NCBI GenBank assembly: GCA_947259225.1
Contig: CAMYLK010000012.1
Location: 34,825-98,824 of the forward strand
From: an uncultured Desulfobulbaceae bacterium
GTDB taxonomy: Bacteria > Desulfobacterota > Desulfobulbia > Desulfobulbales > Desulfobulbaceae
Reading direction: 5' to 3'
Length of the DNA stretch: 64,000 bases
Part shown: in pieces, positions 33,281-36,039 of the stretch
How positions within the stretch are numbered: position 1 is the stretch's first letter
Layout: every line of letters starts with the position of its first letter
The notes under the pieces: generated by a model
The model's input: only the letters and a program-made list of their open reading frames with translations
The model's database searches: none
What the model was told of the DNA's origin: nothing
Translations under genes and position numbers: made by a program

Positions 33281-33769
33281 CTATGAAGTAATATCAATTT
33301 TCTTTGCTTTTGCCCCTTTTACCTTGGGAATCCGTACCTCCAGTATACCATCCTTAAACGATGCTTTTGCCTTTTCCCCGCTCACATTGTCCGGGAGACG
33401 AAAATTGCGGCAGAATGAACCGTATGACCTTTCAACCCGGTGATAATCTTTTTTTTCAATCTTTTCCTCCTGTTTTTTCTCACCGGAAATAGTCAGGGTA
33501 TCTTCGGTGATGGCTACGTTTAAATCTTCTTTGGCAATCCCCGGGATTTCTGCCTTTACAACCATCTCCGCCCCTTCCTCAAAAATATCAATCGAGGGAG
33601 ATATCTCGCCTAACTTGGGGAAATCGGCAAATCCCCATGTTGGGGGCGTCATCAGTGAAAAAGGATGACGAAATAATTTTTCAAAGTAGCGTTCAAACTC
33701 TCCCAAATAGGACTCAGGACGCGTTTCCTCCTTGGTGACCAGTTCTGTCTTTTCCTTATTCTTTGTCAT
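33281..33769 (-). CDS. Small heat shock protein, Hsp20 family
   Basis: From the ATG at 33769, with GGAGG 8 bases upstream, the protein is 162 residues. The alpha-crystallin domain (about residues 55-150) is clear: SIDIFEEGAEMVVKAEIPG, then VAITEDTLTISGEKK, and the late SFKDGILEVRIPK. It is an ATP-independent holdase. The lysine-rich end (VKGAKAKKIDITS) is typical. The longer frame to 33904 has no supporting start site. Confidence 0.94.
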   Translation of the reverse strand: MTKNKEKTELVTKEETRPESYLGEFERYFEKLFRHPFSLMTPPTWGFADFPKLGEISPSIDIFEEGAEMVVKAEIPGIAKEDLNVAITEDTLTISGEKKQEEKIEKKDYHRVERSYGSFCRNFRLPDNVSGEKAKASFKDGILEVRIPKVKGAKAKKIDITS

Positions 33770-33775
33770 AATGTA

Positions 33776-33820
33776 CCTCCTTATTTTTCTTGTGAAGGAT
33801 CTTTCCCGGTACCATCCTTC
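33776..33820 (-). promoter_or_regulatory. Possible switching hairpins in the hsp20 leader
   Basis: In the minus-strand leader GAAGGAU and AUCCUUC (33820-33814 and 33800-33794) form a perfect 7-bp hairpin. The same UCCUU (33799-33795) can instead pair with the AAGGA of the Shine-Dalgarno site (33782-33776). The two pairings exclude each other, so a temperature-sensitive control is conceivable. Confidence 0.35.
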
Positions 33821-34167
33821 AGTTTCCGGTAAACAAAGAACATTGTCCGGCAAAAAATCAGACTCTATAATTAAAGCAGTCCAACTTTTCAGCGAGGGGA
33901 TCAAAACTTATCGCCCCCGGCTACCAGGTAGATGTTCCAGCAATAAACATAGGAACAATTACTAGCAACATGCCGGAAATACTCCCTTTTTCTACTTAAA
34001 AAATAATCATTTTTTGTCGAATATCCATAATATGAATTGATAGGTTGCAGCTCCTGCAAATCTTTTTCGAAAAACATTCGTATCCTCACTTGTTATGCGG
34101 GAGTAAAGCGAATACAATTCGTGAAATCAATCAGTTGCAACACAAGATATTACCGATAAACACTATT
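33821..34167. other. Non-coding stretch between hsp20 and folA
   Basis: This divergent spacer should hold the promoters of hsp20 and folA. I see no CIRCE element, no convincing sigma-32 site and no protein-like reading frame. The sequence is AT-rich. Confidence 0.5.
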
Positions 34168-34647
34168 ATGGAAATCATCCTGATAGCAGCCATGGCAGCC
34201 AACCGGGTTATTGGCAGGAATAATGTCATTCCCTGGCATATTCCTGGAGAGCAGAAACGTTTCAGGGTGACAACATGGGGCCATCCGTTGATCATGGGAC
34301 GCAGGACCCATGAATCCATTGGAAGGGCGTTGCCTGGAAGACGTAATATCGTTGTCACCCGCAACAGGGATTATGGATCACATGGCTGCGAAATAGTACA
34401 TTCCCTTGCAGAGGCATATGCCATATGTCGTGATGAAAAACGCGTGTTTAATATTGGAGGGGAACAGCTTTACAGTCAGGGCCTTTTTCAGGCAGAGACC
34501 CTGATTCTCACTATACTGAATGGTCCTGTGGACGGTGACGCTTATTTTCCAGATTTTTCAAAAAATACATTTACCAAAGTTTCTGAAGAGCAGGTTGACA
34601 CCACCCCACCCTACTCCATTCAAACCTATCGAAGAGTGGATAAATGA
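34168..34647 (+). CDS. folA: Dihydrofolate reductase
   Basis: This 159-residue protein starts at ATG 34168 and begins with the family sequence IILIAAMAANRVIGRNNVIPWH. MGRRTHESIGRALPGRRNIVVTR and VFNIGGEQLY provide NADPH- and folate-binding elements. It reduces dihydrofolate to THF. An in-frame upstream extension to 34045 is not family-like. The Shine-Dalgarno is weak. Confidence 0.93.
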   Translation: MEIILIAAMAANRVIGRNNVIPWHIPGEQKRFRVTTWGHPLIMGRRTHESIGRALPGRRNIVVTRNRDYGSHGCEIVHSLAEAYAICRDEKRVFNIGGEQLYSQGLFQAETLILTILNGPVDGDAYFPDFSKNTFTKVSEEQVDTTPPYSIQTYRRVDK

Positions 34648-34679: not shown

Positions 34680-34709
34680 TTGACTTACTGTAACTCTATG
34701 AAATAAAAT
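34680..34709 (+). promoter_or_regulatory. Sigma-70-like promoter of the UGA-rich peptide gene
   Basis: TTGACT (34680-34685), an 18-base spacer and TAAAAT (34704-34709) give a predicted start near 34716, about 70 bases before the ATG. The -35 box and spacer length are the same as those of the two small RNA promoters. Confidence 0.6.
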
Positions 34710-34784: not shown

Positions 34785-35138
34785 ATGGACAGTAAGGACC
34801 TGAAGAAACTCCTTGCCGGGCTGGGAGTTGCAGCTCTGGTAAGTGCCGGTGGATCTTCTCTGCCAGGGGCACATGCCGCCAGCGCCACCGGATGAAGCGC
34901 TGACAAAGCCGGCGCAGGTAGCGCCGAGAAAGCAGCAGAAAAGGCAGTAGAAAAAGCAGCAGGAACCGGCTGAAGTGGTACAAAAGGCGCCGTGAGCGCT
35001 GTTAAGGAAGAAGCTGCTGCTGCAGTAGAAGAAGAAGCGACCAAACAGGTTGACAAGGCAGTAGATGCTGTCAAAGAAGAAGCTGGAAAAGCAGTGGACA
35101 AAGCCGCAGGGAAAAGCGGCTGAAGCGGCTCCAAGTAA
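34785..35138 (+). CDS. Triple-selenocysteine small peptide, SbtA-like RiPP precursor candidate
   Basis: With UGA read as Sec this is 117 residues ending in TAA. A strong AAGGAGG lies 6 bases before the ATG. Residues 1-31 are MDSKDLKKLLAGLGVAALVS then a small-residue stretch ending AHA, either a leader or a signal peptide. The rest is rich in Ala, Lys, Glu and Gly. UGA codons fall at codons 37, 63 and 113, in ATG-U-SA, GTG-U-SG and KSG-U-SG: each follows Gly and precedes Ser. There is no Cys codon at all. A promoter, SD and terminator frame the gene. From memory, this N-terminus and the repeated USG motif match the SbtA family of thio(seleno)oxazole RiPP precursors, whose partner is the radical SAM maturase SbtM. 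No maturase is encoded here. Alternatives are an exported Sec-rich redox or metal-binding peptide. No uninterrupted frame exists on this strand. Confidence 0.85.
34893..34919 (+). promoter_or_regulatory. Possible SECIS after UGA 1 of the triple-Sec gene
   Basis: UGA at 34893-34895. Starting 12 bases later GCC can pair with GGT around the loop GGCGCA (34908-34919), and the wider GCGCT/AGCGC pair gives an outer stem. The structure is weak compared with the others. Confidence 0.35.
34971..35000 (+). promoter_or_regulatory. Possible SECIS after UGA 2 of the triple-Sec gene
   Basis: UGA at 34971-34973. After a 12-base gap GGCGC pairs with GCGCT (34986-35000, one G-U) around the loop CGTGA. The spacing is close to the 11 bases of known bacterial SECIS elements. 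Confidence 0.5.
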
Positions 35139-35154
35139 GCGTGCGGTCGCACGC
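35121..35154 (+). promoter_or_regulatory. Possible SECIS after UGA 3, extending past the stop codon
   Basis: UGA at 35121-35123. A perfect 6-bp hairpin GCGTGC-GGTC-GCACGC (35139-35154) starts 15 bases later and lies just after the TAA. It is not followed by a T tract, so it is not the terminator; its loop contains G and U. Confidence 0.5.
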
Positions 35155-35171
35155 CTCATACGGTTAAACAT

Positions 35172-35202
35172 AAGCCGGCAACCACCTGGTTGCCGGCTTT
35201 TT
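35172..35202 (+). terminator. Terminator of the triple-Sec gene
   Basis: A perfect 13-bp inverted repeat (AAGCCGGCAACCA and TGGTTGCCGGCTT) with a two-base loop is followed by a T run. It lies 33 bases after the TAA and marks the end of a short single-gene transcript. Confidence 0.9.
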
Positions 35203-35319: not shown

Positions 35320-36039
35320 ATGCGGCGTTTCTTTATTAATCAACAGTCCCTAGCCGGTGATATAGCTCTGCTGTCAGAGGCAGAGTCCCATCATATTGCT
35401 TCTGTTCTTCGCTTACAGTCAGGAGATCCGGTCGAACTTTTTGATAGTTCAGGTACCGTTTATAATGGAAAACTTCTTAATGTTCTACCGGACAGAGTTA
35501 CTGTTCAGATTATTTCCAGAAAACTCGAAAGTCCTGTAAAATCTCCACCGCTTTACCTTTATCAAAGCCTGTTAAAAGGTAAAAAAATGGATTTCCTGGT
35601 CCAAAAAACTACCGAGCTGGGTGTTCACTCCTTTCAGCCGCTCATAACTCGTTACAGTGAAAACCGCGGCAATCCTGACCGACAGCATCAGCGATGGCAA
35701 CGCATCATGCTTGAAGCCTGCAAACAGTGCAAGCGTTCTCGGCCAATGGATATTTTCCCCCGAGTCAAACTTGACCAGGCAGATATAACACTGTTTTCAA
35801 CAAAAATACTGTTATGGGAAGGGGAGAAAGAGATACTCATCGGTCCTGCCCAGTTTCAGGGGCAGGGACCGGTCTGTCTCATGCTGGGACCTGAAGGCGG
35901 TTTTCACCAGGATGAAATTGAATGGGCGAAAGTAAATGGTTTTCAGAGTACTTCTCTTGGCAGGCTGACATTACGGGCAGAAACTGCAGCGCTATCCGCC
36001 ACAGCAATTGTCCAGTTTCTGCTCGGTGCTTTTTCCTGA
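35320..36039 (+). CDS. rsmE: 16S rRNA (uracil1498-N3)-methyltransferase RsmE
   Basis: This 239-residue SPOUT methyltransferase has an N-terminal PUA-like domain (MRRFFINQQSLAGD, SHHIASVLRLQSGD) and the knotted SAM site with MLGPEGGFHQDEIEWA and LGRLTLRAETAALSA. It methylates U1498 of 16S rRNA. It starts about 115 bases past the terminator of the triple-Sec gene and looks independently expressed. Confidence 0.95.
   Translation: MRRFFINQQSLAGDIALLSEAESHHIASVLRLQSGDPVELFDSSGTVYNGKLLNVLPDRVTVQIISRKLESPVKSPPLYLYQSLLKGKKMDFLVQKTTELGVHSFQPLITRYSENRGNPDRQHQRWQRIMLEACKQCKRSRPMDIFPRVKLDQADITLFSTKILLWEGEKEILIGPAQFQGQGPVCLMLGPEGGFHQDEIEWAKVNGFQSTSLGRLTLRAETAALSATAIVQFLLGAFS

Follow-up and report, generated by a model that had tools for sequence, protein, structure and literature searches.

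The window (the whole stretch of 64,000 nucleotides analysed here) carries on its forward strand a single 117-codon frame, sbtA, that runs from an ATG at 34785, behind the Shine-Dalgarno sequence AAAAAGGAGG, to a TAA stop at 35136–35138, both read directly, and contains three in-frame UGA codons. It is flanked by two genes placed by tblastn synteny, which on family knowledge we take to be folA and rsmE; an ORF further upstream is presumed Hsp20-like from family knowledge only. The features of the locus are as follows.

33281–33904, minus strand: presumed Hsp20-like small heat-shock ORF, between recA and folA
34168–34647, plus strand: folA (dihydrofolate reductase), left neighbour; start chosen inside the ORF 34045–34647
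34680–34709, plus strand: promoter-like hexamers TTGACT-18-TAAAAT; scan match, near chance
34785–35138, plus strand: sbtA, precursor of the SbtA family; three in-frame UGAs and a TIGR04081 match
34785–34877, plus strand: leader MDSKDLKKLLAGLGVAALVSAGGSSLPGAHA; TIGR04081 region, then a signal-peptide-like AHA terminus with a putative cleavage site
34893–34895, plus strand: UGA 1, residue 37, ATG-U-SADKAGAGSA
34971–34973, plus strand: UGA 2, residue 63, GTG-U-SGTKGAVSA
35121–35123, plus strand: UGA 3, residue 113, KSG-U-SGSK-stop
35172–35199, plus strand: terminator-like stem of 12 pairs with a T-rich tail; scan match, near chance
35320–36039, plus strand: rsmE-type gene, right neighbour of sbtA

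Each UGA is preceded by a Gly codon (GGA, GGC and GGC for UGA 1, 2 and 3) and followed by a Ser codon (AGC, AGT and AGC), and the frame 34785–35138 contains no Cys codon. The frame, its strong Shine-Dalgarno sequence, the three Gly-UGA-Ser contexts and the absence of cysteine had all been described in the initial annotation and were seen again on direct reading. The SbtA-like leader that it had proposed is borne out by a match to NCBIfam TIGR04081 ('SbtA family thio(seleno)oxazole RiPP natural product precursor') at 43.2 bits against a curated cut-off of 30.5, with the model spanning residues 1–26. Downstream of the leader, the precursor contains repeated C/U-[SG]-[GA] sites (GUSA, GUSG and GUSG). 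The window gene is an added member of the known SbtA family. A Pfam search of the precursor found no family at E up to 10, PF10048 and other bufferin precursor families included. The promoter and terminator that were thought to delimit the gene exist as scan matches, but the scan found two of each kind and shuffled sequences gave nearly as many (means of 1.0 promoters and 0.8 terminators), so these matches are weak evidence. Genes of this family are easily overlooked because every UGA resembles a gene end.

When the window peptide was used as a single-sequence query against the contig collection, no relative came up, and a protein homology search with the window SbtA returned 6 short metagenomic matches. 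Since these searches were nearly empty, the family survey was built from TIGR04081 and TIGR04082 searches and an SbtM alignment. SbtA scored over the TIGR04081 cut-off in 34 of 57 genomes (host included); in a sample of 395 genomes from the phylum, 37 had it. SbtM was matched in 33 of the 57, in 32 of them over the TIGR04082 cut-off. Both proteins were present in 32 genomes, SbtA alone in 2, SbtM alone in 1 and neither in 22 (Fisher p 1.7e-12); a hand count from coordinates placed sbtA and sbtM adjacent on one contig in 23 of the 32 genomes having both. The scan of the contig collection with the SbtM alignment matched 379 relatives, of which the best 80 were used; their titles include Desulfobulbaceae, Desulfobacterales, Deltaproteobacteria and Nitrospirae. 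Among these, the record of the cultured Desulfogranum japonicum DSM 18378 (L253) has sbtA next to sbtM. Within the stretch examined around each of these best 80 of 379, an SbtA-like gene lay near SbtM at 68 loci and no sbtA was found at 12.

Among 141 non-redundant SbtA genes, 56 have three UGAs in an accepted context, 49 have two, 13 have one, 12 have four, one has five and 10 have none. Several selenocysteines in one bacterial protein are unusual. The initial annotation had set random placement of the UGAs in homologs against its own reading; the UGAs instead keep to one kind of context, G/S-U-[SG]. UGA and Cys exchange within that context, as had been anticipated, with equivalence judged by context and not by column alignment. 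Dropped from the counts were a mis-extracted row (G249), duplicate genes, any UGA that opens a tandem pair, lipobox Cys residues and Cys residues no more than 12 residues from a UGA, and one UGA site of L037 was skipped at a contig end. Some frames read through past their probable true end (for example L223, L247 and L180), and the context rule removes most of these far UGAs. L064 has a truncated or frameshifted appearance.

The bacterial selenocysteine signal acts near its UGA, and each UGA therefore needs a nearby hairpin. In the window gene, a SECIS-like hairpin is predicted behind each of the three.

34910–34926, plus strand: predicted SECIS-like hairpin 1, CGGCGC AGGUA GCGCCG, -10.7 kcal/mol, coding for GAGSA
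34986–35000, plus strand: predicted SECIS-like hairpin 2, GGCGC CGUGA GCGCU, -6.1 kcal/mol, coding for GAVSA
35139–35154, plus strand: predicted SECIS-like hairpin 3, GCGUGC GGUC GCACGC, -9.4 kcal/mol, directly 3' of the TAA

These hairpins, the post-stop one among them, and the hairpin-coded repeat described below were all absent from the initial annotation. In 41 genes of this order, the best hairpin had a median of -8.8 kcal/mol at 95 UGA sites versus -2.4 at 2347 other codons within those genes, and 37 further genes from the phylum survey gave -9.85 kcal/mol at 76 UGA sites versus -3.0 at 1297 codons. Over all 141 genes, a hairpin at or below -5 kcal/mol follows 288 of 315 UGA sites (27 have none) but only 3 of 50 comparable Cys sites. 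No more than 18 genes supply these Cys sites, about half of which belong to L165, L182, L202 and L238, and some do not represent genuine motif sites (the terminal IEGC, L180, L202 position 78, L150 and L161). By set, the UGA counts are 88/91 and 74/77, and a weaker 126/147 in the named-locus set; before the Cys exclusions the hairpin was found at 161/166 UGA and 4/42 Cys sites. At 92 of 95 sites the first or second base of the apical loop is a G, and at 59 of 67 internal sites the loop begins 17 or 20 nt past the UGA, in one codon phase.

Where the last UGA stands a few codons ahead of the stop, the stop codon either contains or precedes the start of the hairpin in 26 of 27 cases, and 91 of 96 C-terminal UGA sites in the full set have a hairpin. 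The hairpin that would serve the last UGA is thereby placed past the stop codon, in the 3' UTR. Several individual genes depart from the simple pattern. Tandem UGA pairs, 3–6 codons apart, were seen 11 times (in L029, L032, L151, L157, L163, L169 and others), and the first UGA lacks a -5 kcal/mol hairpin in three of them (L032, L151 and L157); one SECIS may serve both UGAs of such pairs. In L177 the first position of a tandem pair is Cys. At codon 95 of L054, Cys replaces the C-terminal UGA and a hairpin of -8.4 kcal/mol still follows, likely the relic of a UGA site after a recent exchange. L030, L038, L061 and L149 end in AAIEGC and not in a C-terminal UGA unit, and their terminal Cys is without a -5 kcal/mol hairpin.

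Because an in-gene hairpin is itself translated, it leaves a repeated peptide motif, [SG]A[GV][SG][AT]. Judged from the sequences compared here, the repeat motif behind the internal UGAs is the predicted hairpin in translation. It was found at 178 of 216 internal UGA sites versus 0 of 37 internal Cys sites of similar context, in a count that used a slightly wider pattern than the one given and than the pairing test below. By set the UGA counts are 59/64 and 44/50, and again weaker in the named-locus set (75/102); before the Cys exclusions the motif stood at 98/112 UGA and 1/33 Cys sites. The Cys-rich precursors L165, L182 and L238 keep their [GS]C[SG] sites and lack the motif. Alternatively, the motif might be kept for protein function, for instance recognition by SbtM, with the hairpin a by-product of Gly/Ala/Ser-rich codons, and the nearly fixed spacing behind most internal UGAs would suit that explanation. 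The pairing test, however, used 99 sites picked by peptide motif, so that pairing did not guide the choice, and found 5.89 of 6 positions paired versus 3.90 after synonymous recoding, a value reached in 0 of 2000 draws. The motif is also missing from every internal Cys site, including those of genes with an adjoining SbtM, and the C-terminal UGA has a hairpin without the motif. Selection on the peptide is accordingly rated as quite improbable, and translation of the hairpin is the preferred reading.

Sixty distinct hairpins were compared with shuffled versions. Paired cells made up 97.2% versus 82.8% (0/500 shuffles), cells with double changes numbered 74 versus 20.4 (0/500), and the covariation score was 0.536 versus 0.258 (0/500), with a maximum of 0.290 for slid versions. 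Pairs with double changes (4 versus 2.9; 88/500) and pair types (8 versus 7.9; 397/500) showed no excess in these hairpins. The hairpin sites are mutually related, so these statistics are not probabilities of independent events.

The selenocysteine machinery was sought in the host genome, a draft of 288 contigs that is 93% complete with 5% contamination. SelA (630 bits) and SelB (351 bits) are both over their cut-offs. Three further genes bear on the system.

C4:167517–169070: SbtM maturase, TIGR04082, 726 bits, on another contig than sbtA
L023 3740–4804 (G000:C4), plus strand: SelD; its single in-frame UGA lies in the motif CG-U-AAKIG, and the hairpin predicted downstream of it is strong
L056 (G000:C42) 6970–6737, minus strand: second SbtA-type gene, lipobox leader VTQGC

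The maturase, which the initial annotation had placed elsewhere, is thus encoded on a different contig of the same genome, about 3 kb from selD, and its CxxxCxxC motif and several cysteines of the SPASM region are invariant in an alignment of nine SbtMs. SelD with its in-frame UGA and hairpin gives the organism another gene of the selenocysteine type. The second SbtA-type gene has one UGA, four codons ahead of its stop (RGNSG-U-SGL), and a hairpin follows this UGA; a gene in G042 (L065) ends in the close variant IRGKSG-U-SGL.

Of the machinery named in the initial annotation, selA, selB, selD and an sbtM-like radical SAM gene were found and selC was not found in the draft: no tRNA-Sec scored over the cut-off (150/351 and 61/352 candidates scored). 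Nine of 14 tRNA-Sec candidates, those in scanned stretches, were rejected as ordinary tRNAs by ARAGORN. A DNA probe from the selC region of a congener, run without a positive control, had no match in the host genome. All six congeners have a tRNA-Sec (70.8–74.2 bits), which makes a gap in the draft the simplest reading of the missing selC. The initial annotation's reading of the gene as a selenocysteine-rich, SbtA-like RiPP precursor is upheld by the TIGR04081 match, by the SbtM of another contig, by SelA, SelB and SelD and by the exchange of UGA and Cys, with tRNA-Sec unseen in the draft.

SelB was over the cut-off in 6 of 6 selected genomes with a UGA-type sbtA versus 0 of 4 Cys-type genomes, one of which (G443) contains SelB-like fragments. 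G017 and G054 have a UGA-type sbtA and no SelB at E up to 1e-60; their tRNA-Sec scores 72.6 and 70.5 bits, respectively, and the missing SelB likely reflects draft gaps. A general change of code, with UGA read as tryptophan or another residue, would account for four public metagenome proteins of the SbtA family (P0002–P0005) that have W at the expected UGA places, as in a TGA=W translation. These W residues probably come from gene calling with such a code. A changed code is at odds with the presence of SelA, SelB and a UGA-type SelD, with the SECIS-like hairpins that the UGAs carry, and with Cys at such sites in Cys-type genes, three of the four tested genomes of that type being without SelB; it is considered exceedingly improbable.

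Five relatives, two in the genus (G001 and G002) and three in the family (G009, G010 and G031), have the order folA-sbtA-sbtM-rsmE. In the window, folA, sbtA and rsmE are in place and sbtM is missing between sbtA and rsmE; G007 and G019 also have folA-sbtA-rsmE without an intervening sbtM. The congener G006 has a UGA-type sbtA beside an rsmE match with no sbtM between them, and its SbtM is on another contig. The host SbtM groups with those of G004 and G006 (100/99, in a tree with half of the inner branches open and bootstrap unsettled) and falls outside an 11-row clade (99/99) holding the linked SbtMs of genus and family. Its identity is 64% to G004 and G006 and 51–53% to G001–G003. The simplest reading of these sequences is loss of sbtM from the locus, its task passing in trans to a divergent SbtM encoded elsewhere.

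The absence of sbtM from its place between sbtA and rsmE, together with the lack of a tRNA-Sec over the cut-off, could also mean that sbtA is a relic whose translation stops at codon 37. Against decay, all three predicted hairpins are present, the post-stop one included; SbtM, SelA and SelB each pass their cut-off, and SelD contains a UGA as well; and G006 shares the arrangement with its UGA-type sbtA and an SbtM on another contig. A relic is therefore judged very unlikely, and a gene still served by an SbtM in trans is the favoured reading.

A third gene beside SbtM was sought at 26 loci and then at 80 loci (best 80 of 379), with about 4 kb per side. No family except SbtM occurred in more than 12 of these best 80 of 379. 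Conserved folA, recA and insulinase genes were rejected as partners and reflect lineage synteny, and GGDEF sensor proteins, the commonest other cluster at 12 of the 80 loci (best 80 of 379), lie in scattered positions; the other annotated clusters are unrelated. Six clusters were annotated (GGDEF, nuclease, RNase H, methionine sulfoxide reductase, flavodoxin-like and histidine kinase), all of them present at 5 loci or more and distinct from three clusters of small ORFs that overlap sbtA; they contain no peptide exporter, peptidase or immunity gene at the 80 loci (best 80 of 379). Methionine sulfoxide reductase (PMSR) is present at 6 of the best 80 of 379, L267 (5332–6042) and five others, in scattered positions, possibly by chance. 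A defence role was also discarded: PADLOC gave no match for SbtA, and for SbtM only viperin-type radical-SAM similarity.

The leaders resemble export signals: each of the 141 carries a Lys or Arg no later than residue nine. Fifty of them contain a strict lipobox, versus at most 28 in 1000 shuffles, with the lipobox Cys exactly at residue 29 in 34 of the 50. An A-x-A cleavage site was counted in 38 leaders versus a shuffle mean of 32 and maximum of 43, without excess, and was rejected as family-wide export evidence because shuffles reach the observed count. For the window SbtA, whose leader ends in GAHA, export is plausible. By their sequence features, the leaders point to the cell envelope and not to a freely secreted antibiotic. 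The main rival end use is antagonism of other bacteria: the available part of a 2026 review (PMC13188914) lists 'Selenobacteriocin, TIGR04081, SGUG, 2 Sec' in a table. A secreted, bacteriocin-like product would undergo the same maturation and differ in its end use. The lack of an exporter or immunity gene in the annotated clusters at the best 80 of 379 SbtM loci and the lipobox leaders of 50 of 141 genes, which point to anchoring, argue against such a use, and it is held to be unlikely.

Taken together, it is highly probable that the window carries an sbtA gene whose three hairpin-linked UGAs likely encode selenocysteine, whose product is predicted to be converted by an SbtM in trans to selenooxazoles, and whose signal-like leader would direct export. 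The predicted hairpin behind each UGA would cause it to be read as selenocysteine by a tRNA-Sec as yet unseen in the draft. The SbtM of the other contig would then turn the Sec residues into selenooxazoles, going by published SbtM chemistry, and the leader would send the peptide out by the general secretion route. In relatives, lipobox leaders suggest lipid anchoring of SbtA peptides. At the envelope the peptide may bind soft metals or take part in redox reactions; since the clusters studied around sbtM show no recurrent metal gene, this role is proposed purely by analogy with the thiooxazole bufferins. A broader and more tentative proposal, which may well prove wrong, is that SbtA is the anaerobes' selenium counterpart of bufferins, an exported or anchored metal-or-redox buffer whose repeat is written by one SECIS per UGA.

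If this proposal is true, the protein sequence is dictated by the decoding signal and not designed by protein function. On the comparisons made here, SbtA clearly exemplifies a conserved peptide motif that is set by a predicted RNA structure. The pattern can be put as a rule: G/S-UGA-[SG], a loop about 17 or 20 nt on, and a post-stop hairpin for the last site. With this rule, SbtA-type genes can be located directly and given their proper ends, likely Sec positions can be told apart from Cys positions, and the role of SbtA peptides becomes open to testing.

In selenoproteins of the E. coli FdhF type, selenocysteine is specified by a local SECIS, a hairpin shortly downstream of the UGA with a G early in the apical loop. 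The SbtA UGAs resemble this in their nearby downstream predicted hairpin and early loop G, but differ in that several UGA-hairpin units are found in one short gene, the last of them in the 3' UTR.

The SbtA/SbtM thio(seleno)oxazole RiPP system itself (Lewis et al. 2021, as described in the available parts of PMC11002830 and PMC13188914) has the same leader family and U-[SG] motifs, and SbtM and selenocysteine machinery are likewise present in the window's genome. According to the accessible text of PMC11002830, SbtM removes four hydrogens from Cys- and Sec-containing substrates, the Cys product is a thiooxazole by NMR, and a Sec insertion element adjoins the TGA of SbtA. The window gene differs from the 2 Sec of the table entry in PMC13188914, as far as that source is available, in having three UGAs and no Cys, and from the usual system in that sbtA and sbtM are unlinked. 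It also has the post-stop hairpin and the hairpin-coded repeat, of which no mention was found in the accessible portions of the literature searched, review accounts of SbtA/SbtM included and primary SbtA papers outside the search. The hairpin-level feature is new relative to that literature; no claim of literature-wide absence is made.

Bufferins, as presented in the available part of PMC12452194, are thiooxazole peptides made by MNIO enzymes; they have general-export signal peptides and sequester periplasmic copper, about 16% of Buf2 leaders are of the lipoprotein type, and the bufferin-related Buf_EGKCG group has repeated Cys motifs. Unlike these MNIO- and Cys-based peptides, SbtA has a radical-SAM maturase, predicted Sec and no Pfam match. 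Like them, it is expected to contain a thiooxazole-type ring and has a putative export leader, with a share of lipoprotein leaders in the family.
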